Below are positions 16,611 through 51,902 of a stretch of DNA of 56,480 nucleotides, piece by piece. A program made the position numbers and the translations under genes. The first letter of the stretch is position 1. Each line of letters begins with the position of its first letter. This DNA comes from Actinomycetota bacterium (GTDB taxonomy: Bacteria; Actinomycetota; Humimicrobiia; Humimicrobiales; Humimicrobiaceae): the NCBI GenBank assembly GCA_028717265.1, contig JAQUOE010000007.1, positions 1 through 56,480 of the forward strand. Reading direction: 5' to 3'. Under the pieces are notes generated by a model. It saw only the letters and a list, made by a program, of their open reading frames with translations, was not told the DNA's origin and did no database searches.

Positions 16611-17231
16611 TCAGTGGCTTCTTACAATATCTTTCACTTTCATTAGCCTTACTGTGTTTGAACGCTCATTCTCTTCCAATTTCATTGTTATGAATTTTAT
16701 GGTCTCGCTTATACCGGGTATTAATTTATACTCAAGGGCATTTACCCTTCTTCTGGTTTCTTCCATCTCCACAGCCATGAGCTGTACCGATTTTTCCTTT
16801 TCTGCAAGGTTCAAAAGATCATCCAGGAATTTATCGAAATCAGTAAGAGCTATATCCATTTCACCGGACATATTCATGTAACCATAAGGCAGTATGCTGC
16901 CGCTTACTTCCCTCGTATATACGGGTACATTGACACTTATTATGTTTCTCCTGCTGCCCGATACTGAAATCTTCTTTGCGGTAAGCAGTAATGACTGTTC
17001 CGTGGCGCAGGGACCCATTCCGGCCTTTGCAAGCACGAATTTTTCCAGTATGGATTGGAACTTCATTTCTATCGAGAATCTCAATGTTTTGACTTCATCG
17101 ATTGCCGCCAGCAGCTGCCTCATCAGTTCATCTCTTTTATCTTTAAGCAGTTTGTGTCCCCTCAGGGCAAGATTCAATCTCTTTTTTAGCCGGAGAAGCT
17201 CCATCCTGGTTGCATTTACATTTGCGAGCAT
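16611..17231 (-). CDS. ntpD: V-type ATP synthase subunit D
   Basis: A 206-residue central-stalk subunit. The N-terminal VNATRMELLRLKKRL start and long N- and C-terminal helices forming the rotor coiled coil are typical of V/A-ATPase subunit D. It turns inside the A3B3 head and couples it to the membrane rotor. It is the last gene of the nine-gene operon, 9 bp after subunit B, matching the order of the Enterococcus hirae ntp operon. Confidence 0.95.
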   Translation of the reverse strand: MLANVNATRMELLRLKKRLNLALRGHKLLKDKRDELMRQLLAAIDEVKTLRFSIEMKFQSILEKFVLAKAGMGPCATEQSLLLTAKKISVSGSRRNIISVNVPVYTREVSGSILPYGYMNMSGEMDIALTDFDKFLDDLLNLAEKEKSVQLMAVEMEETRRRVNALEYKLIPGISETIKFITMKLEENERSNTVRLMKVKDIVRSH

Positions 17232-17240
17232 TTAGATCCT

Positions 17241-18635: not shown

Positions 18636-18637
18636 CT

Positions 18638-20398: not shown

Positions 20399-20746
20399 TT
20401 ACTCGCTCCTATTTCTCTCTTCAGCCATAATATCCGCCCCCACGGCTTTTATTATTGCTCTTCTTAAATTTTTAACGGCATAATTGTTTCTTTTCCCCAA
20501 TCCGGGAATCACCACTATGGAAGGCTGCGTTTCGTTTGCATATTCCCTGACTAAGCTATCAAGTTTTGATGCAATAGTTTCCGTCATAAAAATAATTCCG
20601 TAGCCTTCCGATACGATCTGCTTTAATTTCTCTTCTGCTTCTGAAATCTTATCGATATCACCGTTTACAGAAAAAGTATCAATACCAGCCGCTTTGAACA
20701 TAGATATAATGTCTTTTTCACCAAATGCAGCAACCTTGATGTCCAT
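20399..20746 (-). CDS. ntpG: V-type ATP synthase subunit F
   Basis: A 115-residue small central-stalk subunit, ntpG in the E. hirae naming. It begins with KVAAFGEKD, where the family usually has a D at the GD position. A flavodoxin-like alternation of strands and helices contains GIIFMTE and VVIPGLG. It binds subunit D and tunes activity. It sits between C and A with no spacer to either. Confidence 0.9.
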   Translation of the reverse strand: MDIKVAAFGEKDIISMFKAAGIDTFSVNGDIDKISEAEEKLKQIVSEGYGIIFMTETIASKLDSLVREYANETQPSIVVIPGLGKRNNYAVKNLRRAIIKAVGADIMAEERNRSE

Positions 20747-21763
20747 TTAAACCTTTACTTTATTCCTTATTTTTTCTTTATCTATACCATAAAAAATACC
20801 GGTATATATAATATTCAAATATCTCAATTCGTTTTTTTTCCTGAAAAAAAATTGGAAAATTTTTTCAGGATTTGAAACTGTAAATTTCAAGGGATCAAAA
20901 AAATCCATAAGGAACCGGCCCTCGCTTTTTTTAAAGGAAGAAAATGTCTTCCCGGAATTCAGGGTATGTATTCCTTTTGCTATCATGTCTGAATAATCTG
21001 TCCATTCCAGTTCTTTTACTAAAAAATCAAGATTTTCGCTCTCAAATCTTTTTAATGAATTTTTTGACAAAAATCCATTTTCATATATGAAATTATCAAA
21101 ATTCAAATCTTCTTCGAGATATTTATTTCTACAGATGTTTTGAATATTGTATATGTCAATAATATGTCTCAAATAATCGGTAATAAATTGCCTTTTTATT
21201 TTTTTGGCAGAATCGAACATCTTGCTTAAATAAAATTTTTCAATTTCGAGTTCCATGAGCCGGTAATTTTTTTGTACTCCTGCAATTTCTACCGCAAAAC
21301 TGAATACCTCTGAAATCGATTGATCAATTTCTTTATAATTTTCTTTCAATGCGGCTTCTCTCAGAGTCTGATATGAATCTGATATGGGAATGAAAAGATT
21401 TTCCAGATCCATATCGAGAACGATCGATTTAATAACCACTTTTAAATTATGCAGGTTCTCTTCAAGGAAAAGGATTCCGATTATCGGTTTATGCTCGTCC
21501 CTTAACCTCTCATTAAGAAATTTAACAGTATTGCCGTACTCGCTGAGAACGATTCTGTCAAAATTTCCGGAATCTTCCAGATCATCTAAGTATTTTGAAT
21601 AAACCGTATCCCTCAATGTCTTGATAAACTCATCCGTTCCCCCGGACATCAGCAGCTTCTCAATTCTATTTTCATCCAGAAATTCAGTTTCTCTTTTCTT
21701 TAACTCTGCGCATGTGAAAAGATAGTCGCTGTCATCACTTATATCATAATCTATCCGTACCAA
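20747..21763 (-). CDS. ntpC: V-type ATP synthase subunit C (AC39-like)
   Basis: A 338-residue, largely helical protein of the V-ATPase subunit C/AC39 (d) family, the funnel linking the D/F stalk to the proteolipid ring. It opens with the YLFTCAELKKRE segment, as in other prokaryotic C subunits, and has repeated helical pairs. It diverges more than its neighbours, which is normal for this subunit. Operon position, size and composition support the call. Confidence 0.88.
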   Translation of the reverse strand: MVRIDYDISDDSDYLFTCAELKKRETEFLDENRIEKLLMSGGTDEFIKTLRDTVYSKYLDDLEDSGNFDRIVLSEYGNTVKFLNERLRDEHKPIIGILFLEENLHNLKVVIKSIVLDMDLENLFIPISDSYQTLREAALKENYKEIDQSISEVFSFAVEIAGVQKNYRLMELEIEKFYLSKMFDSAKKIKRQFITDYLRHIIDIYNIQNICRNKYLEEDLNFDNFIYENGFLSKNSLKRFESENLDFLVKELEWTDYSDMIAKGIHTLNSGKTFSSFKKSEGRFLMDFFDPLKFTVSNPEKIFQFFFRKKNELRYLNIIYTGIFYGIDKEKIRNKVKV

Positions 21764-22339
21764 TTATTGCTTCTCCTTACCAAACAGGTACAATGCCGTA
21801 TCCATCCTTATATCGTCAATATTCGCATCAATGAAACTCTCGGGAGTTATATTGTATTCTGCTTTCCCTTTTATTATCCTGATGCCTTTTTTGAAATCAG
21901 GTTTTCCTTCAACTTTTTTCAAACTTTTTATAGATTCGATCATCTTATCATCGATATTTACTTCTTCGCTTCCAATCTGATAGAAACCTCCATCAACATC
22001 CAATTCTCCAAGTGTTTTCTTAAGAAATTTTTCATAATCTTTCCTGCCGGGATCCGCAAGCTTTTGCCGGGCCCGGTCAATAGTATCTTCGACCAGACCG
22101 ATCTTATACATGAGCATCTTTTGATTAATCCCGGATTTCGCTCTGGATAATTCGATATTCAGGACTTCTTTTTGTTTTTCCCATGCTTCCAGTTTTCCGC
22201 TCCGGTGTATGTCTTTTGCCTTTTTTTCGGCATCTTCTATTATTGCACGTGCTTTCCCCCGGGCCTCTTCCAATATTTTATCCTTTTCCTTCCGGGCATC
22301 ATCCAGAACTTTTTTCGAAACATTATCTAATTCTGCCAT
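21764..22339 (-). CDS. ntpE: V-type ATP synthase subunit E (peripheral stalk)
   Basis: A 191-residue peripheral-stalk subunit. A long charged N-terminal helix (residues 1-85, rich in A, E and K) would pair with subunit G/H as a coiled coil. The C-terminal globular part (about 90-191) contacts subunit B. It abuts subunit C and follows K by 11 bp, as in the ntp order. Confidence 0.9.
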   Translation of the reverse strand: MAELDNVSKKVLDDARKEKDKILEEARGKARAIIEDAEKKAKDIHRSGKLEAWEKQKEVLNIELSRAKSGINQKMLMYKIGLVEDTIDRARQKLADPGRKDYEKFLKKTLGELDVDGGFYQIGSEEVNIDDKMIESIKSLKKVEGKPDFKKGIRIIKGKAEYNITPESFIDANIDDIRMDTALYLFGKEKQ

Positions 22340-22350
22340 AACTTTACCTG

Positions 22351-22815
22351 CTAAAACTGGACCATATTATTAAGGAAGAAAGTTATAAGGAGACCAAGTA
22401 CGGCATAGGTTTCCACCAGTGCCGCAAATACGACTCCCTTCATAACTTCTTTGGACCTTTTGGCCGCCAGACTGATACCGGCTGCACAAACTTTACCCTG
22501 ATATATGCCTGAAAACAGTCCCGCAAATCCTACAGGCAGAGCTGCAAAGAATAACTGCATTCCCTGCGTCAGAGTTTCAATGCTCGTAATTTTTCCGATA
22601 ATCAAAAAAGCAGCGACTATTCCATAAAATCCCTGTGTTCCCGGAAGCACCACCAGCAAGAACATGCTCCCGAAACGTGTAGGATCTTCCGAAAGGACTC
22701 CAGCGGCAGCTTTGGCAGGATAACTAATTCCTATGGATGAACCAATCCCGGCCAAAATGACTGCCAGTCCCGCGCCAAACCCCGCCATTACCATACCAAG
22801 TGATGAATCCGACAT
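22351..22815 (-). CDS. ntpK: V-type ATP synthase proteolipid subunit K with Na+-site residues
   Basis: A 154-residue rotor-ring proteolipid with four membrane helices arising from a hairpin duplication. Only the second hairpin has the ion-carrying Glu (E135 in ALVETYAV). The residues that bind Na+ in Enterococcus hirae NtpK all have counterparts: L57, T60, Q61, Y64 (LPGTQGFYG), Q106 (IYQGK) and E135. A Na+-translocating ATPase is therefore likely. One Glu per four helices implies a low ion/ATP ratio, usual for a pump rather than a synthase. The frame is open to a TTG at 22833, but AGGAGG sits just before the ATG at 22815, which settles the start. Confidence 0.94.
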   Translation of the reverse strand: MSDSSLGMVMAGFGAGLAVILAGIGSSIGISYPAKAAAGVLSEDPTRFGSMFLLVVLPGTQGFYGIVAAFLIIGKITSIETLTQGMQLFFAALPVGFAGLFSGIYQGKVCAAGISLAAKRSKEVMKGVVFAALVETYAVLGLLITFFLNNMVQF

Positions 22816-22829
22816 TTTTCCTCCTATTG

Positions 22830-24824
22830 TCAATCTACTATTGTTATATATTTATGTTCATCTTTTAAGGCTTCAAACGGCCTTCCGCCGCCTGCATAAA
22901 ATTTCGGAAAGAATTCCACATATTGAAGCCTCATCGTATGAACGAAACCGCCAAGAATGCTTATTCCTATATTAAAAATATGCCCGAATAAAAAAATTAT
23001 GATCAAAAGGACGATCCCAATAACCGGGATCGAAACAAACTGAAATGCTATTTTATTAATAGCCACGCCAATACCTGCCGTCACCATTCCCAGTGCCATA
23101 AGTCTCAGATATGAAAGGAAATCACCTAAATAGGAAGTGATCCCGCCGACTATGGTAAGATTTAAAAATCCTATGAATATCCTGAATCCCCAGCTTTTTT
23201 CATTTCTTGCCCCGAAGAAAATTATGACCAGCCCGCTGACAAGCAAGGGCCATATAAGGATTTTTGATATGCCGGCCGGAAATAGAGGTTCCGAAACCAG
23301 CTGCATGCTTACTGCCATACCGGTCGAAAGAAACATCACGATAAGCGATGCGATTATAACTATCCATGGAAGCCCATCCAGAAATGCTCCTTCCCAATTT
23401 TTTCTTTTCAGGTTATCAAAAAATCTGATAAAAAGGCCAAAAAAGACCTGAACGACTCCCAGAATCAATGCCAGTCTAAAAAAATTCATGGACCCTTCAT
23501 TGGAGTTGATCGGATCTCCAAGAATTGCCATTCTCCTGAAAGTATCACCGATACCCAGATGAGAAGGCAGATCGCCAAACCATCCATTAAAAATAACTCC
23601 GCCAAATATTGCAAAAATCGCTCCCATGAAAATCAACATAAGGAATTTTTTCATTTTTCTCATCCTGAAAGCTAAAATCAATGCAAGTGTTGCAATTATG
23701 AACCCATACCCTGCATCCGTTAAGCAAAGACCCAGGAATAAAGCAAAGAATAACGAAATAAACGGCGTGGGGTCAATCTCAAAATATCTCGGCATACCAT
23801 AAAGTTCCACTATCATCTCGAAAGGTTTAAATAATGGTTTATTTTCAAGAATAATAGGGATATTTTCATCTTTATCCGCCTGAATCTCTACTACTTTTGC
23901 AGCTTTGAAATCTTCGATTATAGAAATAATTCGTTTCTTATCCGTCTGCTTTACCCATGCGGTATGAAAAGATACGGAATCAGTAGAGAAGCCTGATTCT
24001 ATGGCTCTTTCTATTTCCAATTTATTTTCGATGTAGTCAAGATAAACGGTCAATGGTTTTTTATATTCTCCGGATATTTTCTTAATTTCCGACTGCAGTT
24101 GTTTTTTCCTGTGTTCATCAAGATCGATACCCTTTTTAATCTTTTCAATATTCTCCTTTATGGTACCGGTATAACCTGTTATATCGGATTCCTCGAAAGA
24201 AATACCGGCGATGTACTCTTCGACATTTTTTCTAAACTGATTATGATAGGCAAGGATTACACAGCTTGCATTTCCGCTTTCGGATAATATTTCATATGAA
24301 ATATTATTTTTATCAAGGTTTTTTATGGCATCTTCGAACTTATTTTTTTCATATCTCAATATTCCCAATTTTATAGTATAGATACCCCCACCGGCTATAT
24401 CCTCAAGATTACCTTTGTAGCAGGACCAAAAATTCAATTTGCTGATTTTTAACCTCGAATCCGTGATCCTTGTATCCAGATTTTCAATTTCTTCCTGGAT
24501 GCTTAAGATATTGTTTGCAATTTCTTCGAAATTTTCGCTCTCAAGGATTCTTTCATATTCCGTTTTACCTATTATTATTTTTCCGGCCCGCGACGCAATT
24601 TTTTTTAGTTTTTTATCCTCAGAATCATTAAGAATATCCAGAGCTCCCCGGACACCGGTATCGTGTTCAGAAATCATATCGGAAGGAGGGATATCCAGAT
24701 CGATCTTACCCGTATACGGTTTTAGTTCGATAGCGATTTGAGTTTTTTGTAATTTTTTAAGAACAGCTTCCGTATCGGATTTATGTGTCACAATAAAGAG
24801 TTTATTTAGTCTAGCAACTGCCAT
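22830..24824 (-). CDS. ntpI: V-type ATP synthase subunit I (a subunit)
   Basis: A 664-residue stator subunit. The N-terminal half (1-330) is soluble with coiled-coil arms that hold the peripheral stalks. The C-terminal half has about eight membrane helices beginning near FISLFFALFLGLCLTDAGYG. The essential half-channel Arg is in YLRLMALGMV. The ATG overlaps the stop of the preceding subunit H gene by one base (TAATG), indicating coupling. Length is normal. Confidence 0.95.
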   Translation of the reverse strand: MAVARLNKLFIVTHKSDTEAVLKKLQKTQIAIELKPYTGKIDLDIPPSDMISEHDTGVRGALDILNDSEDKKLKKIASRAGKIIIGKTEYERILESENFEEIANNILSIQEEIENLDTRITDSRLKISKLNFWSCYKGNLEDIAGGGIYTIKLGILRYEKNKFEDAIKNLDKNNISYEILSESGNASCVILAYHNQFRKNVEEYIAGISFEESDITGYTGTIKENIEKIKKGIDLDEHRKKQLQSEIKKISGEYKKPLTVYLDYIENKLEIERAIESGFSTDSVSFHTAWVKQTDKKRIISIIEDFKAAKVVEIQADKDENIPIILENKPLFKPFEMIVELYGMPRYFEIDPTPFISLFFALFLGLCLTDAGYGFIIATLALILAFRMRKMKKFLMLIFMGAIFAIFGGVIFNGWFGDLPSHLGIGDTFRRMAILGDPINSNEGSMNFFRLALILGVVQVFFGLFIRFFDNLKRKNWEGAFLDGLPWIVIIASLIVMFLSTGMAVSMQLVSEPLFPAGISKILIWPLLVSGLVIIFFGARNEKSWGFRIFIGFLNLTIVGGITSYLGDFLSYLRLMALGMVTAGIGVAINKIAFQFVSIPVIGIVLLIIIFLFGHIFNIGISILGGFVHTMRLQYVEFFPKFYAGGGRPFEALKDEHKYITIVD

Positions 24825-39898: not shown

Positions 39899-42800
39899 TT
39901 ATTTTTTATTCTTCATGTATTGTCTGGCCTGGTACATAAAAGCTTCCAGGCGGGTTTCGGTGGTTTCCTGTTCCAGTCCGTCAAAGGCAAGATTGAGCCA
40001 TGGTATCCTGTACTCTTCTCTTATCCTTTTTGATACGGCATTGACGATATTTCCCGGGATGCAGGTAAAAGGCAGGACGTTGATGATCCCATCGGCACCA
40101 TTTTTGATCCAGTCCACCGATTTCCCTATACTCAGAGCCGCTTCCCCGAACCATTTGATTATGTAAGGTTCCGCATTTTCCCAGACTTCATAAATATCGG
40201 TTTCTTTGCTTTCCCTCAGGAAGCCTTCCAGCGGTTTTTCCAGCCTTCGGTGGCAGTACTGCAGAATTTTATAAAGCATCCTGTTGGAAATATAGAATCT
40301 TACACCTCTCGCAAAATCGCCGGTGTTCTCAGTAAATTCTCTGTAACCATTGCCATCATCCCCCTCATGGCCATTCGGGCTGAATAACTTCATGATCTTG
40401 TAATAAAGATCCGTCTCCTTGGTTATAATATCTATTTTCCTCGTAGCAGTAGTATGAAAGGGCCATTCTCCGAATGCAGGAATCTCGACTTCCCCGCCCT
40501 GTGCCTCGACTCTTCTTATAATCTCATTATTGCTGTAAGGATGGTTCCTGACAAATATCTCGCCCACTATGCCGATCCGCGGCTTATCGGTCTTTTTAAC
40601 CGGTATATTCTCAAAATCCTTTCTGGCCTCCTTAAGGATATTTACCATCTTACCGAGAGTTTTTGCAAGAGAATAATTTTCCACGACCCTGCATACATCT
40701 TCGATATACTTATTATAAATCTTTTCTGTTTTCCCCTTTTCCAGCTCATATGGCCTCGTCTGCCTCAGCATCTTATTCAGGTAATCGACCGTAAAAATAC
40801 CGAACATCCCTTTTGTTATCAGTACGAGCCCATTTAATCCTCCCATATCATATTCTTTGTAAAACTGCCCGCTTTCCGGAGCGCCCGGAGCGATAATCGG
40901 CACATCTCCATAACCCAGTTCTTTGATTATTATTTTCTGCATTTTATTGTACTGTCCGAAACGGCATGGTCCGTATGTCTGAGCCATCAGAAAGGCGGAT
41001 TTCTTTGGATCATTATGTTTTAACGTCTTTATGATATCTCCCGTGGTTATGATAAAAGGATAGCATTCGCTTCCAAGCGTATATTTTCTCCCCAATTCCA
41101 GGGTCTCATCATCCGAATAAAGCATCTCGGCATCGATGCCTGCAGCTCTGAAAGCAGATTTTATGACCACCGCACCATCGCTCATATATGGAATATATAT
41201 CGTCCTCCCCTGGCTCTTTTTGAACACGGCATCCCGGGTTTTCGGTTTTTCCGGCTCCTGCGAAAAATCCTTTTTGTTTCTAACATTCATCAGGGAATCG
41301 ATGAATGCCTCGCATCTGGTTATTACTCCCGCGCCCGCGGAATGTTCATCTACTTCAAGCTTTAAAAATGGCTTGTTTATTTCCCTTTCAAAATACTGAA
41401 ATATAAAAGAATCGGGTCCACAGCCAAAGTTGGTGATATAAACCGGGTACAGTCTCCTGTCTTTGTTGATAACTTTTGCCGCACTCATGATCCTGTCCCC
41501 GAATTCCCAGTAAAGGTTTGGCCATTCCTTCGAAAGATCGATTGAATCGATGGGAAGATAATCAAGAGGCATCACCTTAAAGCCGAGTTCTCTTAATTTT
41601 TTTGGGACATCCATGCTGATTGCGCGGTCGCAGCTGTTATACGACCTGCTCGATATGACTATCGCAATTTCATCTTCCCCGAGACTCGAGAGCACTTCTT
41701 TGCCTCTCTTTTTGACGGATTTGTAAAATTTATTCTGGGCGATATATGCCTCTTTTATTGCCTTTTTTATGGATTTTTTATCCCTGCCAAGCTCTTTTCC
41801 CAGGCCGGTCAGCTGTTTTTCCTTTATATACTCTTTAAAACTAAAATTAAGAATAGGAGTCAGTACCTTTACGTCTCCCGTATCCATAGCGGACTTTACA
41901 ATCGACCAGGTTCCCTGTATGAATGGGCATGGATAACTTCCGGTTCTATCTCCCTTGATATTGCTTTTTTTAGTCGGCATGTCCCTGGTGGTAGGCAGAA
42001 AAAGATAATCGACATTCTTTTCCAGAAGGTTCCTGGCATGGCCCAGAGTGGTCTTCATCGGAAAACACGTCTCGGCTACCGAGTACTGCAGGCCGTCGTT
42101 GATTATCTTTTTATTTGTTTTATCCGACAGGATGAAATCAAAGCCAAGTTCCGAAAAGAAAGCGTTCCAGAACGGATAGAATTCATGGGTGAGCATAGCA
42201 TAGGGCATACCCACTTTCGGCGCCCCCGGATTATCTTTAGGCTTATAGGAATTTAAAAGAAAATTTTCACGCTCTTCAAAATAATCGGGTATATCGTTTT
42301 TGACGGTTTCTCCCTTTTCATATTTTTCACATCTGCCGCCATAATACAGCGCAGGCTGCCCTTTGATGGAAATCCTTTTTATTTCGCACATATTGGGACA
42401 GCCCCTGCACTCAAAAGAGCTGTGGGAATAGCTTACTCCGGCTATATTTTCGAATCCCCTGAATTTAGTCTTCGCAGGTGAACTTTCAAGTACCCTGATT
42501 GCCGTCCCGATTGCTCCGGTTACTTCATGATTTTCAGGTACAATCACTCCTTTGCCCAGATAATTCTCGAAAGCAGCTATGACTGATTTATTGAATGCAA
42601 CCGCACCCTGGAAAAATATCCTGTCTCCTATCTTCTTTCTCCCCACTACCCTATTTATGTAATTCATTGCAATGGAATAAGCAAGACCGGCCAGGATATC
42701 TTCGATTGCGGCTCCCTTCTGATAATGGGAATAAACATTTGTTTCCATAAAAACCGTACAGCGCTCTCCGAGATTCAAAGGCTTTTCCGCTTTAAGCGCC

Positions 42801-44182
42801 ATATCGCCGAAATCTTCTATTTTTATATCGAACCTCTCTGCCTGCTCCTCCAGGAATGAGCCCGTACCGGCGGCACAGACCTTATTCATCTCGAAATCTA
42901 CCACCACTCCGTTTTCCAGTGATATGAATTTCGAATCCTGTCCGCCAATTTCAAATATCGTATCTACCGAGCTGTCGATATCCGCCGCAGCCGTAGCCTG
43001 GGCAGTTATTTCATTTATCACTATATCCGCACCCACGAAATCACCGATAAGATATCTTCCGGAACCGGTGGTTCCGACGCCCACAACATTGATCCTTCCC
43101 CCTACTCTGGACCCTATGATTTCGATACCTTTTCGTACCGCTTCTATCGGCCTTCCGGCTGTCCTTAAATAAACTTTTTCGATAAGTCTTTTATTGCTGT
43201 CTATCGCCACTACATTTGTGCTTATTGAACCCACATCGATTCCGATATAGGCATCGACTTTCCTGCCGTTGAAATCATACTCGGTGATCTTGCCTTCGGG
43301 AAGCTTTGATCTGGAAAGAACCAGCGGAGCAAGGGTCTCACTTTTATACTTGAAATTCTTCAAATAATCGTCCAATTTATCCGCCAATACGGATATGTCC
43401 AGGTACTGCTGCGATGTTTTAGAGACAATACTTAAAGCGGCACCAATGGCACCAATAGATGCCCGGTGTTCCGGAATTATTACCTTTTCTCCCAGCACAT
43501 CTTCAAAAGCCTTTACCATGGCTGCATTGAAGGATACTCCACCGCAAAAGATTATGGGGGGTATGAATTTTTTACCCCTGACAATTCCCGATTTGAAGCT
43601 TCTTGCCATCGCATAACACAGGCCGAGGATTATATCCTCATCGCTTGCCGCCTCCTGCTGAAGGTGGATCATATCCGATTTTGCGAATACGCTGCATCTT
43701 CCGGCAATAGTCGAAGGTGTTTTAGATTTTAATGCCAGCCCGGCAAATTCTTCTATTGTCAGCCCGAACCTGGAAGCCTGCTGATCGAGAAAAGAACCTG
43801 TTCCTGCCGCACATAACTCATTCATGGCATAATCGCCATAAGCAAGATCTATGAATTTGGAATCCTGACCCCCGATTTCTATGACCGTTTTTGCATCCCG
43901 GTACAGGAGCCGCACGGCGCCGACTATGGCTTCTATCTCATTTACAAAATCAAGGCCCAGCATCAGGGCCAGTTCCTTCCCTCCTGAACCAGTAATACCG
44001 ATGCCTGCTATTTTATCTCCGTAACCGGTTTTATATATTGACTCTATATCCTCTTTAACAAGCTGAACCGGTTCTCCGAGGTGCCTTGTATAAGGAAGGA
44101 TTTCCACTATTTCCTTTTTTTCATTTATAATTGCTCTGTTGACACTGATTGATCCAATGTCGTAGCCTATATAAAAGCTCAC
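39899..44182 (-). CDS. Fused double activase / 2-hydroxyacyl-CoA-dehydratase-like giant protein
   Basis: A 1427-residue cytoplasmic protein. Residues 1-255 and 311-566 are two ASKHA ATPase domains of the BcrA/BadF/HgdC activator family. Each has its Fe-S cysteine pair (C124 in ELCAAGTGSF and C163; C436 in VCAAGTGSF and C475) and the IGGQDSKF loop. A cysteine cluster follows (C592, C595, C599, C618), then a DUF2229 domain (from about 660) and an HgdB-like part from about 1050 to the end with GSECYPF and YGPCRFGQ. Activators of this family fire single electrons, driven by ATP, into dehydratase or double-cubane partners. The fusion, known in anaerobic Clostridia, has no settled substrate. Start is GTG with GGAT upstream. 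Confidence 0.9.
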   Translation of the reverse strand: MSFYIGYDIGSISVNRAIINEKKEIVEILPYTRHLGEPVQLVKEDIESIYKTGYGDKIAGIGITGSGGKELALMLGLDFVNEIEAIVGAVRLLYRDAKTVIEIGGQDSKFIDLAYGDYAMNELCAAGTGSFLDQQASRFGLTIEEFAGLALKSKTPSTIAGRCSVFAKSDMIHLQQEAASDEDIILGLCYAMARSFKSGIVRGKKFIPPIIFCGGVSFNAAMVKAFEDVLGEKVIIPEHRASIGAIGAALSIVSKTSQQYLDISVLADKLDDYLKNFKYKSETLAPLVLSRSKLPEGKITEYDFNGRKVDAYIGIDVGSISTNVVAIDSNKRLIEKVYLRTAGRPIEAVRKGIEIIGSRVGGRINVVGVGTTGSGRYLIGDFVGADIVINEITAQATAAADIDSSVDTIFEIGGQDSKFISLENGVVVDFEMNKVCAAGTGSFLEEQAERFDIKIEDFGDMALKAEKPLNLGERCTVFMETNVYSHYQKGAAIEDILAGLAYSIAMNYINRVVGRKKIGDRIFFQGAVAFNKSVIAAFENYLGKGVIVPENHEVTGAIGTAIRVLESSPAKTKFRGFENIAGVSYSHSSFECRGCPNMCEIKRISIKGQPALYYGGRCEKYEKGETVKNDIPDYFEERENFLLNSYKPKDNPGAPKVGMPYAMLTHEFYPFWNAFFSELGFDFILSDKTNKKIINDGLQYSVAETCFPMKTTLGHARNLLEKNVDYLFLPTTRDMPTKKSNIKGDRTGSYPCPFIQGTWSIVKSAMDTGDVKVLTPILNFSFKEYIKEKQLTGLGKELGRDKKSIKKAIKEAYIAQNKFYKSVKKRGKEVLSSLGEDEIAIVISSRSYNSCDRAISMDVPKKLRELGFKVMPLDYLPIDSIDLSKEWPNLYWEFGDRIMSAAKVINKDRRLYPVYITNFGCGPDSFIFQYFEREINKPFLKLEVDEHSAGAGVITRCEAFIDSLMNVRNKKDFSQEPEKPKTRDAVFKKSQGRTIYIPYMSDGAVVIKSAFRAAGIDAEMLYSDDETLELGRKYTLGSECYPFIITTGDIIKTLKHNDPKKSAFLMAQTYGPCRFGQYNKMQKIIIKELGYGDVPIIAPGAPESGQFYKEYDMGGLNGLVLITKGMFGIFTVDYLNKMLRQTRPYELEKGKTEKIYNKYIEDVCRVVENYSLAKTLGKMVNILKEARKDFENIPVKKTDKPRIGIVGEIFVRNHPYSNNEIIRRVEAQGGEVEIPAFGEWPFHTTATRKIDIITKETDLYYKIMKLFSPNGHEGDDGNGYREFTENTGDFARGVRFYISNRMLYKILQYCHRRLEKPLEGFLRESKETDIYEVWENAEPYIIKWFGEAALSIGKSVDWIKNGADGIINVLPFTCIPGNIVNAVSKRIREEYRIPWLNLAFDGLEQETTETRLEAFMYQARQYMKNKK

Positions 44183-44560
44183 TGCTGATCCACTTATCCT
44201 TTCTAAATCAGTTTGGTGTTATATAACTTAAGAAACCTGACTAATGGAAGTCTGGCTGTTTAAAATCGTTAAAGTTCCGTTAAATAAACCAACTTTTACC
44301 AATAATTCTACATGCTAACATATTAGTTATAAACGTCAATAAATCCGTTTCAGTTTCATTTCATTCACGTATATTCATGTATAGGGATCATCTCCTGTCA
44401 GATTTAACAGTTAAATAGGTTAAAATATTGATTTTTTAACATCTGCGGCCGCCGGCAGCTTAAAATGTTTGGCAGAGATACTTAACAGAAATATTAGGAT
44501 GAGATATAATAACCTCTTTAAAAATATACTGGCTGAATCTTTGCAAGAAAGCAGCTTTTT
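44183..44560. other. Divergent intergenic region with repeated GTTAAA hexamers
   Basis: This 378-bp stretch without a gene separates the giant activase (leftward) from the AAA ATPase operon (rightward). It contains six GTTAAA/TTTAAC hexamers: 44268 and 44279 as direct copies (CGTTAAA-GTTC-CGTTAAA), 44403/44410 as a 13-bp inverted repeat, and 44419/44435 as a wider inverted pair. A GC-rich island with a GCGGCCGC core lies at about 44444. The rightward promoter is at 44482-44510. No clear -35 was found for the leftward gene, though TATATAAC lies near 44220. No RNA gene or CIRCE heat-shock operator was found. Confidence 0.6.
44482..44510 (+). promoter_or_regulatory. Promoter of the AAA-GrpE-Hsp70 operon
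   Basis: TTAACA (44482-44487, one mismatch to consensus) and a perfect TATAAT (44505-44510) are separated by exactly 17 bp. They lie about 50 bp before the ATG of the AAA ATPase gene. This is the best vegetative-type promoter seen in the window. Confidence 0.7.
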
Positions 44561-46684
44561 ATGAAACCGAAACTCAAAGCTTATGGCAGGGTGGACCTTG
44601 ATGGAACCCACCGGGCCGTGATTGAGACAGATTCAATAGAATATAAACCTTTAACAGATCTCGCTCAGGGCAAACCCTGTTTTTTAAAGATTCAAAATAA
44701 CAGTAAAATATGCGGCTGTATACTTTCGGAAGTCAGGCCCTCCAGTGAAAACAGGATTTATCTTGATAGATTCAAGATGAAACACCTGCAGATCCGTGAC
44801 GGTGATGAGATAAGTATAGATGAGATCGAACCGGCCCCCGCTATAAAAGTGGAACTCAGCGCATCAACCAATCTGTCAGAAAGAGATATCGCCCGCTTCA
44901 TAGGAAAGCCCGTGGCCAAGGGTGAAAAAACCGCTCTTTATACATTCAGCGGTGAACCAAGATTGATTTTAGTGAGTGATACCAGACCGGCCGAAATCGT
45001 CATCATAGGTGCCGATACGGATATAAAAACTGCAGGCATGGTAGATGAGAAAGTGCCGCTCTCATATAATGATATAGGAGGACTCTCCCGTGAAATCAAA
45101 CAGTTAAGAGAGATTATCGAATATCCCCTGCGTTTCCCGGAAATTTTTGAAAAACTCGGTGTGTCACAACCCAGGGGTGTCATTCTGTACGGTCCTCCCG
45201 GCACGGGTAAAACTCTGATAGTAAGAACACTGGCAAATGAAGTCGGGGCAAAGTTCTATACGCTCAGCGGTCCCGAGGTTTTCAGCATGTGGTATGGTGA
45301 AAGCGAGAAGAAGCTGCGCCTGTTATTCGAAGAAGCACAAAAGAACGCTCCCTCTATAATTTTGATAGACGAACTGGATGCAATAGCTTCTAAGCGGGAA
45401 AAATCCTATGGGGAGATGGAAAAGAGAATAGTCACCAGCCTGCTGACGCTTATGGACGGCCTGATACAGCTAAAGGGAGTCGTTGTAGTGGCGACCACAA
45501 ACAGGATAAACTCCATAGACCCGGCCCTCAGAAGAGAGGGAAGGTTCGGCCATGAAATAAATATCGGCGTGCCTGATTCAAAAGGACGAAAAGAAATTCT
45601 GGCCATACATACACATAAAATACCTCTTTCGGCAGATGTCGATCTGGATCTCATTGCAGAAAAAACAGTTGGTTTCGTTGGAGCGGACATCAAATACTTA
45701 TGCCGCGAAGCTGCCTATAACGCGCTGAGGCGCACATTCCCCGAAGATGCTTTTGAAAAAGGTAAAATAATTCCGGATACCGATCTCGAGGTATCACAGC
45801 TTGATTTTGAAAATGCACTTCCGAATATTTCACCATCCGCAATCAAAGAATTTTTAATCGAGATTCCGAAAGTTTCCTGGGAAGATATAGGAGGACTGGG
45901 AGAAGTCAAAAGACTGCTGATAGAAAATATAGTATATGGCATCACCAAAAGAGAAGTATTTAAAAAAGTGGGAGTCAAACCGGCAAAAGGATTACTTCTT
46001 TACGGACCCCCGGGAACTGGAAAAACACTTCTGGCGAAAGCAGTTGCCAGCCAGTGCGGTGCAAACTTCATAACTGTAAAAGGTCCGGAAATACGCTCCA
46101 AATGGGTAGGCGAATCGGAAGAGAGGATCAGGTTTCTATTTGCCAAGGCAAGGGAAGCATCCCCATGCGTAATTTTCTTTGACGAGATCGATGCCGCCGT
46201 GCCATCCAGGGGACATGATACCAGCGGGGTTACCGATACCATAGTAAATCAGATATTATCGGAAATGGATGGCATCGAAAGCGCAGAGGGAGTCTTTGTC
46301 ATGGGAGCAACCAACAGAGTGGAACTCCTTGATCCGGCAGTTTTAAGGCCGGGCAGGTTTGATTATCACATAGAGGTTCCGCTTCCGGATCCTGAAGCAA
46401 GAGAATCCATACTGAACATCTGTCTTAAAGACAAGCCCCTGTCAAAGGACATTGATCTTAAAACTCTGACTCGGGATACAAAAGGATTTTCGGGCGCGGA
46501 AATCAGTGAAATATGCCGCGAGGCGATATGGGATGCGATACGTGATGCAGATTACGATCCGGATAAGGTAAAGGTTACCATGGATCACCTTAAAAGATCT
46601 GCCGGCAAAGTCAGCCAGACCAGAGATGACATTAAACCAAAGCAAGTCGGTTTTAGCGCCGCTAATACAAAAAAACAAAACTAG
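44561..46684 (+). CDS. CDC48/VCP-like double AAA+ ATPase
   Basis: A 707-residue protein with an N-terminal double-psi-barrel-like substrate domain (1-165) and two AAA modules. D1 has Walker A at 211-218, Walker B IILIDE (266-271) and arginine finger R325/R328. D2 has Walker A at 482-489, Walker B VIFFDE (537-542) and R596/R599. Both modules look active. Pore loops are MWYG (D1) and KWVG (D2), aromatic in both rings, which fits substrate threading. Such proteins are hexameric unfoldases or segregases. It heads a set of at least five rightward genes, 3 bp before the GrpE-like gene. It lacks the cytoplasmic tail that recruits cofactors in eukaryotes. Confidence 0.93.
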   Translation: MKPKLKAYGRVDLDGTHRAVIETDSIEYKPLTDLAQGKPCFLKIQNNSKICGCILSEVRPSSENRIYLDRFKMKHLQIRDGDEISIDEIEPAPAIKVELSASTNLSERDIARFIGKPVAKGEKTALYTFSGEPRLILVSDTRPAEIVIIGADTDIKTAGMVDEKVPLSYNDIGGLSREIKQLREIIEYPLRFPEIFEKLGVSQPRGVILYGPPGTGKTLIVRTLANEVGAKFYTLSGPEVFSMWYGESEKKLRLLFEEAQKNAPSIILIDELDAIASKREKSYGEMEKRIVTSLLTLMDGLIQLKGVVVVATTNRINSIDPALRREGRFGHEINIGVPDSKGRKEILAIHTHKIPLSADVDLDLIAEKTVGFVGADIKYLCREAAYNALRRTFPEDAFEKGKIIPDTDLEVSQLDFENALPNISPSAIKEFLIEIPKVSWEDIGGLGEVKRLLIENIVYGITKREVFKKVGVKPAKGLLLYGPPGTGKTLLAKAVASQCGANFITVKGPEIRSKWVGESEERIRFLFAKAREASPCVIFFDEIDAAVPSRGHDTSGVTDTIVNQILSEMDGIESAEGVFVMGATNRVELLDPAVLRPGRFDYHIEVPLPDPEARESILNICLKDKPLSKDIDLKTLTRDTKGFSGAEISEICREAIWDAIRDADYDPDKVKVTMDHLKRSAGKVSQTRDDIKPKQVGFSAANTKKQN

Positions 46685-46687
46685 CGA

Positions 46688-47419
46688 ATGGAGATTATCG
46701 AAACATTGCCGCTCATACTGACATCTTTTATAAGTCCATCAAGATTAATGGGCATGACCATTTCGGGATTGATCCTGTTCCCTTTGATGATCACTGCCGC
46801 TTTTTTAATCACAGCAGGAACAGCGCTCATAATATTTTTTGTGAATAAAAAGTCAAAGGCTGCCGCCGGACAATCTCTGCAGGAAAATGCTGATTCCGAA
46901 ACCGGTTCCTCGTTTTTGAAGCTGCGCGGCAATCTGGAGAAAATAACCGGGCAAATCCAGGAAATCGGTTCACAGCTTGATAATCTCCGGCTGGACCTGG
47001 AAGACTATGCAGCCGAAGGCCTTAAAAACGAGGAGGAGCTGAAAGAAAAATATCACAGAATGGCAGACAACCTGTTTCTTTTGCTCGATCATTTCGAAAT
47101 CCATAAAAAGAGCGGTAAAAAATCCGGCAAAATAGACTGGTTCTATGAAAAAACCCGCTGGGTACTTGAACAGGAAGGAATCGAAGAGATCCCGGCCGCC
47201 AGAGGGGACAGTTTTAATGGAATTTATCATCAGGCAGTAAGCAGCCATCCGCACAAACTCCCGGACGGCACCATTCTGGAAATTTCATCAAAAGGCTACT
47301 ATGTAAAAGGCAAAACCGGAAAGGATGACATCATCTTCAGGCCCGTCAGGGTGATCGTCAGCAGCGGACCGCAAAAAGAAAACAATCCGAAAAATAAAAA
47401 AGAGGTAAAAGATGAATGA
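46688..47419 (+). CDS. Membrane-anchored GrpE-like protein
   Basis: A 243-residue protein. A hydrophobic segment at about 22-52 should anchor it. A charged coiled coil covers about 75-125, as in GrpE dimers, then a helix with LLLDHFEI. The segment at about 163-226 resembles the GrpE beta head: GIEEIP, DSFNGIYHQAV, LPDGTILE, GYYVKG and RPVRVIVS line up with the usual GxExI, FDPxxHEAV, PDGTVxE, GYxxxD and RPAxVxVS. I infer a nucleotide exchange factor for the Hsp70 encoded next, with an 8-bp overlap between the genes. A membrane anchor is not normal for GrpE. The head motifs are recognisable but degenerate, so function is inferred. Confidence 0.75.
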   Translation: MEIIETLPLILTSFISPSRLMGMTISGLILFPLMITAAFLITAGTALIIFFVNKKSKAAAGQSLQENADSETGSSFLKLRGNLEKITGQIQEIGSQLDNLRLDLEDYAAEGLKNEEELKEKYHRMADNLFLLLDHFEIHKKSGKKSGKIDWFYEKTRWVLEQEGIEEIPAARGDSFNGIYHQAVSSHPHKLPDGTILEISSKGYYVKGKTGKDDIIFRPVRVIVSSGPQKENNPKNKKEVKDE

Positions 47420-49385
47420 GGCAATCGGTATAGATCTCGGGACCTATAATTCAGCAGCGGCATTTGCTATGGGAAGAGAGAACGTTGTAATGATAAAAAG
47501 CAAATACGGAAGGACCATATATGGAAGCGGAAAGAACTTCCCATCCTTCGTATTATTTGATTATAACGGCAGAAAGCAAACAGTCGGGTTGCTTGCCAGG
47601 GCAAACAGGAGAGATCCGAAAATACTCATATGGGGCGTAAAAAGGCTGGTCGGTCTTTCCTACGACGAGGCGGAGAGAAGAGGCGAACTTAACCGGTTTC
47701 ATTACGATATCGAAAAAGGACCCGGCGGAGGCATCCTGATAAAGGTCGGGGAAGAACGGTATACCCCTTCTCATATACTGGAATTCATACTCGCCGAAAT
47801 CAAGGAAGATGCAGAAAACAGTAAAGTGAATCCAAATCTGGGCAGGACCATAGAAAATGCAGTGATAAGCGTCCCGGCGTATTTTGATGCCACAAGGACA
47901 GGTCTTATAAAGGCAGCAGCCGAAAATGTAGGTTTTAAAAAAGTAGATACGATTGCCGAACCTACTGCGGCCGCTATCCAGTATGCCGCTCATGGCCTGG
48001 ATATAAAAGAACAATCTTATATTCTGGCATTCGACATAGGAGCAGGAACACTTGATATCACGGTTATGCTCATACTTAATGAAGGAGGGGACCTTATTCC
48101 CGGAGAAGTCTGCACATCGGGAAACGAAGCACTGGGCGGTATTGATATCGACGATCTTTTAACAGATTATCTTACCGATAAATATAAACTTAAACTGGAA
48201 GAGGATCCGGATTTAAAGGCAACATTCGCAGAAGAAGTCGAAAAAGCCAAGGTAAATCTATCATCGCTGGAATCTGTCCCTTTCAGTCTCCCCGATCAGC
48301 GAACCGTTTATTTAAGCCAAAAAGAAATAGAAAACGTGCTTAACACCAGAAATGCATCGGACAAAGATAAAAAGTCTTTCCTGGAAAAATGCCGTGGTCC
48401 GATAAGAGTGGCACTGGATTCAGCCGGGATAGGCGCCGGGGATCTGGATCATGTTCTTTTTGTCGGGGGGCCCACTTATATGCCATGTATCCGCAGCATG
48501 GTAAAGGATGAATTAAAAAACCTTGGAGCCTCACCTCAACTTTTACAGGAACTCGGGAGCTTTGATAAAGAAAAATTGAGCACGGTAAATCCAATGGAAT
48601 GTGTCGCAAGAGGTGCGAGCCTGAGAGCCGGAGAATTCGTAAAAAGAGGTCCGACAACCGATCCCAATGGATATGGCACCGTTTTCCAGGTTGGCGGAGG
48701 AATAGCCGATTTTTTCTGCACGATAATACCACCCAATTCAAATTATCCGATAACCAGGGTAAAAAATATCGTATATTCCAATCCGGATATGCTTCATGTC
48801 ACAGTTCCTCTGGTCAGAAAAAGAAAATACGATAAAGAATACAGATACTGCAATCTCGGATATTATGATTTCTACGTGAAACCAACCGGAAAGAGACCGG
48901 GGATCAAAATAACACTGGAGCTGAATAACAATAAGGACCTGATCGCAACATTCACGGATGAGGTGACCTCGGAATCAATCAGATTCGAGAAATTAAATCA
49001 ACTGGAAGGAAATGACGTAATACTGCAGGAAGAAAGAGAACCAATGCCGATCCCCGTAGATTCAAGCAGCAAAAGTATGGGTGGATCCATACCGGATTTT
49101 GGCGGCGGTCCAAAATTTAACTGGACAAAAGAGAAACTTGAAAAAGCCATCCATGTAGCCGGCAAGGTAATAGATGATCTTGCAGCTAATTCAAGAGATA
49201 ATAAGGTCATGTTGAAGAAAGAAGAACTGGTAAGTCTTATAAGAAATAATCCTGAACCGGATAAGCATACAAATATTATTTTAAACAGGACGCTTGAGCT
49301 TTTAAATCTCCTGAATAATGCGAAGATAATATCCGGAAATGACTTCAACGATTATTCCAAAAAAATCAAAGAAATAGAATACTGA
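47412..49385 (+). CDS. Hsp70-family chaperone (DnaK paralog)
   Basis: A 657-residue Hsp70. The nucleotide domain (1-400) has phosphate-1 IDLGTYNS (7-14), the catalytic-Lys region GVKRLVG (K77), VPAYFDATR, AEPTAAA, phosphate-2 FDIGAGTLD (207-215) and the adenosine motif FVGGPTYMP. A divergent beta substrate domain (about 420-540) and helical lid (about 570-657) follow. Differences from housekeeping DnaK, such as GTYNSAAAF for GTTNS and the absence of the DVTPLSLG linker-region motif, mark it as a paralog. It overlaps the GrpE-like gene and precedes a TPR protein. No DnaJ is encoded nearby. It probably works with the AAA ATPase and GrpE-like protein. Confidence 0.9.
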   Translation: MNEAIGIDLGTYNSAAAFAMGRENVVMIKSKYGRTIYGSGKNFPSFVLFDYNGRKQTVGLLARANRRDPKILIWGVKRLVGLSYDEAERRGELNRFHYDIEKGPGGGILIKVGEERYTPSHILEFILAEIKEDAENSKVNPNLGRTIENAVISVPAYFDATRTGLIKAAAENVGFKKVDTIAEPTAAAIQYAAHGLDIKEQSYILAFDIGAGTLDITVMLILNEGGDLIPGEVCTSGNEALGGIDIDDLLTDYLTDKYKLKLEEDPDLKATFAEEVEKAKVNLSSLESVPFSLPDQRTVYLSQKEIENVLNTRNASDKDKKSFLEKCRGPIRVALDSAGIGAGDLDHVLFVGGPTYMPCIRSMVKDELKNLGASPQLLQELGSFDKEKLSTVNPMECVARGASLRAGEFVKRGPTTDPNGYGTVFQVGGGIADFFCTIIPPNSNYPITRVKNIVYSNPDMLHVTVPLVRKRKYDKEYRYCNLGYYDFYVKPTGKRPGIKITLELNNNKDLIATFTDEVTSESIRFEKLNQLEGNDVILQEEREPMPIPVDSSSKSMGGSIPDFGGGPKFNWTKEKLEKAIHVAGKVIDDLAANSRDNKVMLKKEELVSLIRNNPEPDKHTNIILNRTLELLNLLNNAKIISGNDFNDYSKKIKEIEY

Positions 49386-49442: not shown

Positions 49443-50981
49443 GTGGAATCAGCTGAAGGCAAAAAAATAATTAAGCTGGTAAATGAGCTAAAGTACGAAG
49501 AAGCTCTGGGAATAGATTTCGGGGTGCCCCGAAAGACAATAAATGAAGCCCACATGAGATTGTTTTACAGGTTCGGTGATTCGGTAGATGTTCAAACTGC
49601 TCTTGATCAGGCAAAAAGTATTCTTATAGAAGAAGATGACTCAAAAAAAGGTATACGATTCTATAATCTGGGCCGGTACAGCGATGCTCTGCCATGTCTC
49701 GAAAGAGCATTCAAGAGCCGCGGCAATGAAACGGATTCTCACTGGATGGGAGCGGCTCTTTATAGATTGGGCCGTTACAGCGAAGCACTGATATATTTTG
49801 AGAAAGCATTTAAACTGCGTGGAGATGAATCCAACAATTGCTGGATGGGCATCACTCTCTCCAATCTGGGACGGTATGAAGAATCTCTGCCCTATCTCGA
49901 GAAAGCAGTGAAACTTCGCGGAAACTGGATTGATTATAACTGGCTCGGAACCACGCTTTCAAGACTAAGACGTTACGGAGAAGCGCTGCCTTATCTTAAA
50001 AAATCTTTAGAACTGCAAACCAACAAATCAGATGTATCAAATTACCACTGGATCGGCAATACCCTTTTCAATCAGGGCCTTTACAGCGAGGCGCTGTCTT
50101 ATTTCAAGAAAGCAGCCGAATTGCGGGGAGACGAGACGGATAAGTACTGGTTAAATACCACCCTTACAAAACTCGGCCGCATTAAAGATAGTTCAAAAAT
50201 CGATACCCAAAAAAATTCAGTAAACGGGACATATAAGAAATTATCTTTCAGGCCGGAAGATTTAACCGGATTTCAGGATATCATCGACAGGGTAAAGATC
50301 ACACCGCGGGTTGATGCAAGAGATAACTTCGAAAAAGGTAAGGAATTCTATAATCACGATCAATATAAGGAGGCGCTGCCCTATTTTGAAAAAGGGGTAA
50401 AACTGCGGGGAAACTGGCTGGATTATAACTGGCTCGGTGCCACTCTTTTCAAACTAAAGCGCTATGAGGAAGCACTGGATAATCTAAAAAAATCACTTGA
50501 ACTCCAGGACGATAAAAAAAATATGTCGAATTACAACTGGCTCGGAACCGTGTTCTTCAATATGGAGCGTTATGAAGAGGCACTTCCTTATTTCGAGAAA
50601 GCGTTGAAATTACGCGGTAATGGATCAGATTACAACTGGGTCGGCAGTACTCTTTCAAAACTGAACCGTAATAAAGACGCACTGCCATATCTCCGGAAAG
50701 CAGTGAAGCTTCGTGGAGATTGGCTCGACTACAACTGGCTCGGCTCTACCCTTTCCAGGTTAAAACACTATAAGGAAGCACTGGATATTCTAAAAAAATC
50801 ACTTGAACTCCAGGGCAATAAATCAGATATATCGAATTACAACTGGCTCGGTACCACCTTATATTATATGGGCAGATACGAAGAAGCGCTTCCGTATTTT
50901 AAAAAAGCCCTTGAACTAAGGGGAGATGAAACAGATGAGCGATGGGTCGAGCTTACATACGAAAAATTAAACTCCCGCTAA
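49443..50981 (+). CDS. TPR-repeat protein with nested superrepeats
   Basis: A 512-residue soluble protein made largely of tetratricopeptide-like repeats. The unit is 33 residues with pattern LRG-N/D-x3-DYNWLG-x-TL-x6-Y-x-EALPY, alternating with 36-residue units carrying LQ-x2-KSD-x-SNY. Two arrays (about 60-250 and 295-505) are joined by a linker (about 250-290) that has no clear repeat. Many copies are close in sequence, implying recent duplication. TPR proteins bind partners and often serve Hsp70 systems as adaptors, which fits the position after the Hsp70 gene. The start is GTG, 4 nt after GTGAAAG. No signal peptide is seen. Confidence 0.88.
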   Translation: MESAEGKKIIKLVNELKYEEALGIDFGVPRKTINEAHMRLFYRFGDSVDVQTALDQAKSILIEEDDSKKGIRFYNLGRYSDALPCLERAFKSRGNETDSHWMGAALYRLGRYSEALIYFEKAFKLRGDESNNCWMGITLSNLGRYEESLPYLEKAVKLRGNWIDYNWLGTTLSRLRRYGEALPYLKKSLELQTNKSDVSNYHWIGNTLFNQGLYSEALSYFKKAAELRGDETDKYWLNTTLTKLGRIKDSSKIDTQKNSVNGTYKKLSFRPEDLTGFQDIIDRVKITPRVDARDNFEKGKEFYNHDQYKEALPYFEKGVKLRGNWLDYNWLGATLFKLKRYEEALDNLKKSLELQDDKKNMSNYNWLGTVFFNMERYEEALPYFEKALKLRGNGSDYNWVGSTLSKLNRNKDALPYLRKAVKLRGDWLDYNWLGSTLSRLKHYKEALDILKKSLELQGNKSDISNYNWLGTTLYYMGRYEEALPYFKKALELRGDETDERWVELTYEKLNSR

Positions 50982-51062: not shown

Positions 51063-51902
51063 ATGGCAAAACTAAGTTACTTCAAAATTTTAATAATTTT
51101 TATCCTGCTTCTCTTTGTAATCCCGCTTTTATCTTCCTGTGACCAGACTCTTATCAATGTCTTTACTGAAGTAAATTCCGATTATTCCGGAACCAGAACC
51201 ATCGATATAGCGGTAAAAACAGAATATCTGCAAAACAGCACGGCAATTTCAGGCCAAAACAAATCCCTTTCCGATAAAATACTGGAAAGCCTTCCGGAAG
51301 GAGAGTACCAGACATTCGATGAAGAGGGCTACACTCACTTCAGTTCCACTATAAGCTTTGAAGATATAAACTTCCTCCAGCATATTTCGATTGATAATTT
51401 CTCTGAGACCCCGCCTGAAAGATTCTATGCCAAACTGGAGAAAGTAAGCTATTTTTTTCATGATGAATATTTCTTCGAAGATTATGTAGATATGAAAATT
51501 GATGAGACACTGCTTGCCTCTTCGGATGCGAATTCCGACTACAGCAAGATCGCCGGCCTTGCGAAAGAGGACAGCAATATTTTGAATGTGACATATCAGG
51601 TAAAATTCCCGGTAAAAATAACCAGGCACAACGCAGATTTGATCGGTGATAGTAACATTGCCATATGGAACATAAAATATGGCGATGAGAAAAAAATATT
51701 TATAGAGGGCGATAAAACAAAACTGCTGACATACTTCCTGATCGTTATTTTAAGTTTTATCGGTTTATTCATAATCTTTATAATTATAATAATAATCTAT
51801 AACTCAAAAAGAAGTAAAAGACAGCCTCCTCCCAGGAAACCTCTATATTCCTATGATAATTACTTCAAAAGGGACAGGTATTTCGATACGGAAGATGAAT
51901 AA
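51063..51902 (+). CDS. Lipobox protein with C-terminal membrane helix
   Basis: A 279-residue envelope protein. The N-terminal hydrophobic signal ends in a lipobox (LLSSC, Cys26), so it is probably lipid-modified. The extracellular part (27-218) resembles LppM/DUF3153-type proteins weakly (a strand-rich start, TEVNSDYSGTRTIDI). A strong membrane helix (about 220-246) then leads to a short basic, Pro- and Tyr-rich cytoplasmic tail. The two anchors make a loop pinned at both ends, with a tail that could contact cytoplasmic partners. It follows the TPR gene by 81 bp and overlaps the fumarase beta gene by 8 bp. Function unknown. Confidence 0.78.
   Translation: MAKLSYFKILIIFILLLFVIPLLSSCDQTLINVFTEVNSDYSGTRTIDIAVKTEYLQNSTAISGQNKSLSDKILESLPEGEYQTFDEEGYTHFSSTISFEDINFLQHISIDNFSETPPERFYAKLEKVSYFFHDEYFFEDYVDMKIDETLLASSDANSDYSKIAGLAKEDSNILNVTYQVKFPVKITRHNADLIGDSNIAIWNIKYGDEKKIFIEGDKTKLLTYFLIVILSFIGLFIIFIIIIIIYNSKRSKRQPPPRKPLYSYDNYFKRDRYFDTEDE

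Follow-up and report, generated by a model that had tools for sequence, protein, structure and literature searches.

A GrpE-like protein with a predicted membrane anchor in a conserved Cdc48-like/Hsp70/TPR gene cassette

We describe a bacterial four-gene cassette in which a GrpE-like protein with an N-terminal membrane helix (TM-GrpE) is encoded between a Cdc48-like ATPase and a divergent Hsp70, with a TPR-repeat protein downstream. The cassette lies in contig JAQUOE010000007.1 (assembly GCA_028717265.1) of an Actinomycetota bacterium from the Humimicrobiaceae, and the window, i.e., the whole stretch of DNA that was analysed, comprises its positions 1 to 56,480 (56,480 nucleotides). The family, fold, and anatomy of TM-GrpE, its anchor, and the conservation of the cassette are near certain. 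Going one step further, we think it likely that TM-GrpE is a dedicated, membrane-anchored exchange factor for the neighboring Hsp70, working with the Cdc48-like ATPase at the inner membrane. The pairing with this Hsp70, the exchange activity, the joint action with Cdc48, and the vWA sensing discussed below are what we infer.

Table 1. Features of the cassette in the window
Feature	Coordinates	Strand	Evidence or remark
Promoter-like site TTAACA-17-TATAAT	44482..44510	+	~50 nt upstream of first cassette gene; 11/12 consensus
Cdc48-like double AAA+ ATPase, 707 aa (gene 1)	44561..46684	+	PF00004 twice, 307 bits
TM-GrpE, 243 aa (gene 2)	46688..47419	+	PF01025, AlphaFold2, Foldseek, orthologs in 9/9 loci
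TM helix codons, about residues 26-54	46763..46849	+	Kyte-Doolittle, AlphaFold2; followed by NKKSK
Long stalk helix codons, residues 74-141	46907..47110	+	AlphaFold2; aligns with GrpE stalk
GrpE beta-domain head codons, residues 160-226	47165..47365	+	AlphaFold2 pLDDT 90-97; GrpE motifs
Divergent Hsp70, 657 aa, GTYNSA subfamily (gene 3)	47412..49385	+	PF00012, 204 bits; NBD, beta-sandwich, helical lid
TPR-repeat protein, 512 aa (gene 4)	49443..50981	+	PF07719/PF00515, 11 matched stretches

Family, fold, and membrane anchor of TM-GrpE

The TM-GrpE open reading frame starts with an ATG only 3 nt past the stop of the Cdc48-like gene and overlaps the Hsp70 frame by 8 nt; together, this gap and overlap point to translational coupling of the cassette genes. 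A preliminary description of this DNA had noticed the overlap and had read the C-terminal part of the product as a GrpE-like head following a coiled coil, citing three motifs (FNGIYHQAV, LPDGTILE, and RPVRVIVS). All three are present in the 243-aa frame in the GrpE order, the adjacency to Hsp70 recurs in 9 of 9 orthologous loci, and the head itself is borne out by the Pfam match, by a search with the family profile, and by the predicted fold and its structural neighbors. The match to PF01025 (53.8 bits, E 2.4e-14, cut-off 25.8) extends over residues 71-225, corresponding to profile positions 8-164 of 165, so the motifs are not there by chance. The six TM-anchored orthologs that were scanned (L058, L060, L062, L063, L065, and L066) exceed this cut-off as well. 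The NCBIfam GrpE equivalogs, for which the best score is 29.7 against a cut-off of 137, are far from being reached, and by these scores the window protein is thus a divergent GrpE paralogue and not the housekeeping GrpE.

With the single sequence as query, the closest solved relative is Geobacillus GrpE (4ani, E 1.1e-4), and the profile of the family matches solved GrpE chains at far better significance (4ani, E 7.6e-15). The head motifs F...H.A, GTI.E, KGY, and R..V.VS are common to TM-GrpE and canonical GrpEs (loci with a minus-strand match were left out of this comparison), and those at the core of the head are retained in all ten anchored family members. In the alignment, the loop preceding the last head strands is longer in TM-GrpE than in canonical GrpE.

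An AlphaFold2 model, for which the window and the fetched loci supplied 14 input sequences, consists of a first helix (residues 26-60), the stalk helix (74-141), a second helix (147-162), and the strands of the beta-domain (165-225), with a pLDDT of 90-97 for residues 150-230. Foldseek returned 12 PDB matches at E <= 0.001, all of them GrpE or human GrpEL1 and among them the DnaK-bound GrpE 1dkg, with the first unrelated match at E 0.86. The accompanying TM-scores, normalised by query length, reach a modest 0.3-0.4, as is expected when stalk, head, and membrane helix have no defined angle to one another. The model and the fold search agree on the structural hallmarks of a GrpE, namely a long stalk helix and a beta-domain head. 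Residues 160-230, on whose fold the preliminary description had staked its reading, take the GrpE fold and no other.

The protein has one strong membrane segment, with a mean Kyte-Doolittle value of 2.3 over the 21 residues 29-49 and a pLDDT of 88 over residues 31-50 of the first model helix. It had been proposed that a membrane helix replaces the free N-terminus of GrpE. The helix is indeed present, but what it replaces of canonical GrpE is no more than the flexible tail at the N-terminus, the stalk helix being kept. All ten anchored members have such a segment (Kyte-Doolittle 2.0-3.2), located 183-205 residues ahead of the C-terminus (194 in the window), and none was found in a control set of 29 GrpEs, drawn from related genomes and the window's own genome, where the maximum over 21 residues is 1.16. 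Lys and Arg are richer on the GrpE side of the helix in eight of the ten members; L058 and L062 show no charge difference between the two sides. Given this bias, the positive-inside rule, and the domain order, the C-terminal GrpE end of TM-GrpE, with NKKSK following its helix, is probably cytoplasmic.

The anchored proteins come in two forms. The window protein and its Chloroflexi ortholog (L065, 256 aa) are composed of TM and GrpE, and the eight Deltaproteobacteria/Myxococcota proteins (450-534 aa) are built from a signal peptide, a domain of ~200 residues, a TM segment, and the GrpE head. In L062 (length counted from a probable start at 8632), VWA (48.1-50 bits, with a DTSES metal motif), TM, and GrpE (39.8 bits) are found in one open reading frame. 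The Pfam VWA match is weak in L058 (15.8 bits) and absent from the other Deltaproteobacteria/Myxococcota orthologs, and the best PDB match of a profile of the region is a weak one to the CLCA1 VWA domain (E 0.017). We therefore call the extracytoplasmic domain vWA-like: it would be a vWA domain that is clear in L062 and has drifted in the other members. In the window and Chloroflexi forms, this putative sensor is absent and the tether alone is kept.

The cassette, its Hsp70, and its distribution

The promoter-like site ahead of gene 1 is probably the operon promoter. It is among the two best of the region by consensus match alone, and the total of 17 such sites is not above that of shuffles (mean 14.3). 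The product of gene 1 is named Cdc48-like since it has two AAA domains but scores 723 bits with TIGR01243 (CDC48), below the cut-off of 802.65. The GC content of the cassette (0.43-0.46) is near that of the genes to its right, so composition gives no sign of an island. As for gene 4, the first ~60 residues of the TPR protein (YEEALG...INRAHIRRLH...REALNKAK; 49443-49634) recall helices I-II of J-domains, in the orthologs too. An hhalign comparison with J-domains, for which two of the four sequences were entered by hand, gave a probability of 34% (P 4e-4) for helices I-II only. Neither an HPD motif nor a Pfam match was found in this N-terminus; a degenerate J-like module is possible.

The Hsp70 of the cassette carries the signature GIDLGTYNSAAA and scores 205.8 with the DnaK equivalog TIGR02350, against a cut-off of 822.55; on this basis, it is a subfamily distinct from DnaK. 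Its model (pLDDT 85.5, pTM 0.83) shows the NBD, strands at residues 415-525, and helices at 573-656, and matches full-length DnaK in Foldseek (E 6e-38). It thus has the actin-like ATPase, the substrate-binding beta-sandwich, and the lid by which an Hsp70 is recognized, and the ATPase-site motifs DLGT, K77, E183, and GxGTxD are kept. In all 19 Hsp70s of the alignment, a Tyr follows the phosphate-loop Thr (GTYNS vs GTTNS), an invariance that is biased because the query was partly chosen on the GTYNS motif; this Tyr may alter nucleotide handling.

In DnaK, a loop of lobe IIB is part of the recognition of GrpE, and HscA, which is without that loop, is not known to use GrpE. According to the alignments, the same loop is about 9 residues shorter in the cassette Hsp70 than in DnaK. 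With this shortened loop and the longer head loop of TM-GrpE, the interface predicted for the cassette pair must differ from that in 1dkg. A joint change of the two loops is possible and would, in addition, keep the cassette pair apart from the housekeeping pair. The latter is present elsewhere in the host genome, with a second, soluble GrpE (contig C54, cut by the contig end) and a canonical DnaK (contig C21), and there are two clear J-proteins, one of them on the contig of DnaK. TM-GrpE and the cassette Hsp70 are, therefore, probably an extra, specialised pair.

When 84,980 species genomes were scanned with an Hsp70 query weighted toward its motifs, and the best few candidates per genome were scored, nine clear Hsp70 orthologs emerged: eight from Deltaproteobacteria/Myxococcota MAGs and one from a Chloroflexi MAG. 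(Rows 2-4 of the alignment behind this query are artificial, not real proteins, and served only to steer the choice of patterns.) They are 54-59% identical to the window protein over the first 411 residues and 47-50% over the full length. In all nine loci, the order Cdc48-like ATPase, GrpE with TM, Hsp70, and TPR protein is contiguous as in the window, with the Cdc48-like orthologs (51-65% identity) in the same position and a TPR ortholog downstream of Hsp70.

The orthologs reach about 1100-1250 bits, and no other Hsp70 goes beyond about 350, so that by score the subfamily has a sharp boundary and few members. In all, 10 carriers were found; the groups that contain them have 1 to 8 per 189-400 genomes. 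Profile searches at class and phylum level (again with the best few candidates per genome) re-found the same carriers and no new one, and in the 397 genomes of the window's phylum no Hsp70 ortholog at E <= 1e-54 was found besides that of the window's own genome. Scans of viral contigs gave no relatives, and a plasmid search gave distant DnaKs alone (about 30% identity). Scanning genomes with GrpE itself as query gave no hits; the patterns derived from it lay in variable parts of the protein. Two genomes from the class of the window (L091 and L092) have Cdc48 homologues that were set aside as not belonging to this cassette; they adjoin gas-vesicle-like genes (GvpL/F-like, as judged by eye).

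More distant cassettes have an Hsp70 of 33-37% identity that still adjoins Cdc48. In L068, L069, L070, and (by alignment) L067, from Chloroflexi and Patescibacteria, a soluble GrpE-like protein is encoded between the two; its PF01025 score is above the cut-off in L069, just below it in L068, and weak in L070. In L071-L074, Cdc48 is directly beside Hsp70 with no GrpE gene in between, hence not every Cdc48-Hsp70 pair requires a GrpE. The simplest history would be that of an old Cdc48-Hsp70 pair that gained GrpE, then the membrane anchor, and then the vWA domain (or lost the latter afterward). The wider Cdc48-Hsp70 pairs with the GTYNS signature (L067-L070 and L071-L074) were seen in Chloroflexi, Patescibacteria, Verrucomicrobia, Deltaproteobacteria, and Fischerbacteria. 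Downstream of the Patescibacteria cassette L070 (6045-6680 of that locus), the stretch CKKCGGSGKDGKTRC resembles a DnaJ-type zinc motif; it has no Pfam match.

Proposed mechanism and competing explanations

The beta-domain of GrpE wedges the nucleotide cleft of Hsp70 open, whereupon ADP is released, and GrpE is described as the sole type of Hsp70 exchange factor known from bacteria (PMC4753570). Since the core head motifs are kept, nucleotide exchange on the neighboring Hsp70 is, as far as sequence can tell, the most likely activity of TM-GrpE. In our proposal, TM-GrpE would be held in the inner membrane by its one N-terminal helix, with stalk and head in the cytoplasm, and would act as both the exchange factor and the docking site for the Hsp70 of the overlapping gene. 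Hsp70 would capture clients, TM-GrpE would release ADP and client at the membrane, and the Cdc48-like ATPase, whose two AAA domains suggest a threading step, would thread or extract them. The TPR protein is a plausible adaptor, and the four products would then form a membrane-associated unfolding or remodelling machine. If so, bacteria would have an Hsp70-Cdc48 machine localised to the inner membrane, with a logic comparable to the Cdc48-driven extraction at the eukaryotic ER.

In the Deltaproteobacteria/Myxococcota, the extracytoplasmic vWA-like domain probably would bind a ligand or partner outside the membrane and so couple Hsp70 cycling to binding. With such a sensor-like domain facing outward in the relatives, something at the cell surface may position or control the chaperone machine. 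A more specific version, which we put forward tentatively, is a transmembrane signalling chaperone: an extracytoplasmic vWA receptor would set, via exchange by the GrpE head, the cycle of a private Hsp70 that feeds a Cdc48-type unfoldase at the inner membrane, with the window protein as the minimal, receptor-less form. The vWA-TM-GrpE proteins would then amount to a control of the chaperone cycle from outside the cell.

Three other explanations deserve attention. The GrpE-like head could be a mere tether that brings Hsp70 (and thereby Cdc48) to the membrane without speeding up ADP release, leaving exchange to the soluble GrpE of the host genome. The divergence of the head, its longer loop before the last strands, and the shortened IIB loop of Hsp70 would suit such a role; however, all ten anchored members preserve the core motifs of the head, beyond what a tether should need, and the GrpE is always beside its dedicated Hsp70, for which reasons we regard a tether without exchange as unlikely.

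We give rather little credence to a second explanation, in which the cassette would be a defence-like module responding to stress or conflict and vWA, GrpE, Hsp70, Cdc48, and TPR make up a regulated signalling assembly, not a protein-repair machine. The patchy distribution (10 carriers, the window's genome standing alone among the 397 of its phylum) fits this idea, as does the recurrence of Hsp70 with GrpE, vWA, and TPR in the predicted conflict systems of Kaur et al. 2020 (PMC7159879). The cassette nevertheless has no effector domain and is flanked in the window by housekeeping genes (fumarase, topoisomerase). PADLOC made no specific defence call for it, matching only generic AAA (IetA, TRIP13) and TPR models and none for GrpE, Hsp70, or the vWA form.

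Finally, the short window protein, with a helix near its N-terminus and a start codon that is a prediction, might be an ordinary soluble GrpE paralogue after removal of a signal peptide or correction of the start, but this is highly improbable, as the Chloroflexi and Deltaproteobacteria/Myxococcota members keep an internal TM besides an extra N-terminal hydrophobic segment, at a distance from the C-terminus that the window helix shares, a start at either of the following ATGs in frame (residues 21 and 23) would leave the helix in place, and a secreted GrpE would be apart from ATP and Hsp70. An anchored exchange factor thus remains our preferred reading.

Relation to known systems and the surrounding genes

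TM-GrpE shares with the GrpE family (PF01025) the stalk helix, the second helix, the beta-domain head, the core motifs, and a gene adjacent to that of an Hsp70. It differs from canonical GrpE in its N-terminal membrane helix (vWA plus TM in the relatives), in scores far under the equivalog cut-offs, and in the longer loop before the last strands. Moreover, it clusters with Cdc48 and TPR genes and not with dnaJ, and it exists alongside a normal soluble GrpE. Escherichia coli DjlA, a membrane-anchored J-protein, is likewise a cochaperone that localises Hsp70 action at a bacterial inner membrane, but its J-domain stimulates the ATPase and is not an exchange factor.

By its working principle, i.e., an Hsp70 exchange factor held by a TM helix, TM-GrpE is closest to yeast Snl1. 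This protein of the ER/nuclear membrane has an N-terminal TM helix and a cytosol-facing BAG domain, and was described in 2014 as the only exchange factor of Hsp70 known to be membrane-associated (PMC3962485). Snl1 is eukaryotic, however, its BAG domain is unrelated to GrpE, and it comes without a dedicated operon, Cdc48 partner, or vWA domain. Accessory Hsp70 and GrpE also occur in the neighborhoods of GAP1-N2 GTPase conflict systems, and vWA, TPR, and TM parts appear in the same study (Kaur et al. 2020, PMC7159879). Those systems are centred on a GTPase; the retrieved passages of that paper mention no vWA-TM-GrpE fusion, and the word Cdc48 is absent from it. Open-access literature on membrane GrpE, on vWA with GrpE, and on Cdc48 with Hsp70, GrpE, and TPR, outside which most subscription journals fall, yielded no description of the cassette. 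The GrpE family is known, and the TM-GrpE/Cdc48/Hsp70/TPR system is apparently undescribed.

The surroundings of the cassette offer some further observations. Between the cassette and the fumarase genes, an LppM-domain protein with a C-terminal TM helix is encoded on the forward strand (51063-51902), overlapping the next open reading frame by 50 nt; none was seen in the other cassette loci. On the reverse strand, positions 39899-44182 encode a 1427-aa protein with two BadF/BcrA ATPase domains and DUF2229, which is a giant fused CoA-dehydratase activase. Farther upstream and on the same strand (16611-24824), reading of the open reading frames reveals what appears to be a complete V/A-type ATPase operon in a bacterium.
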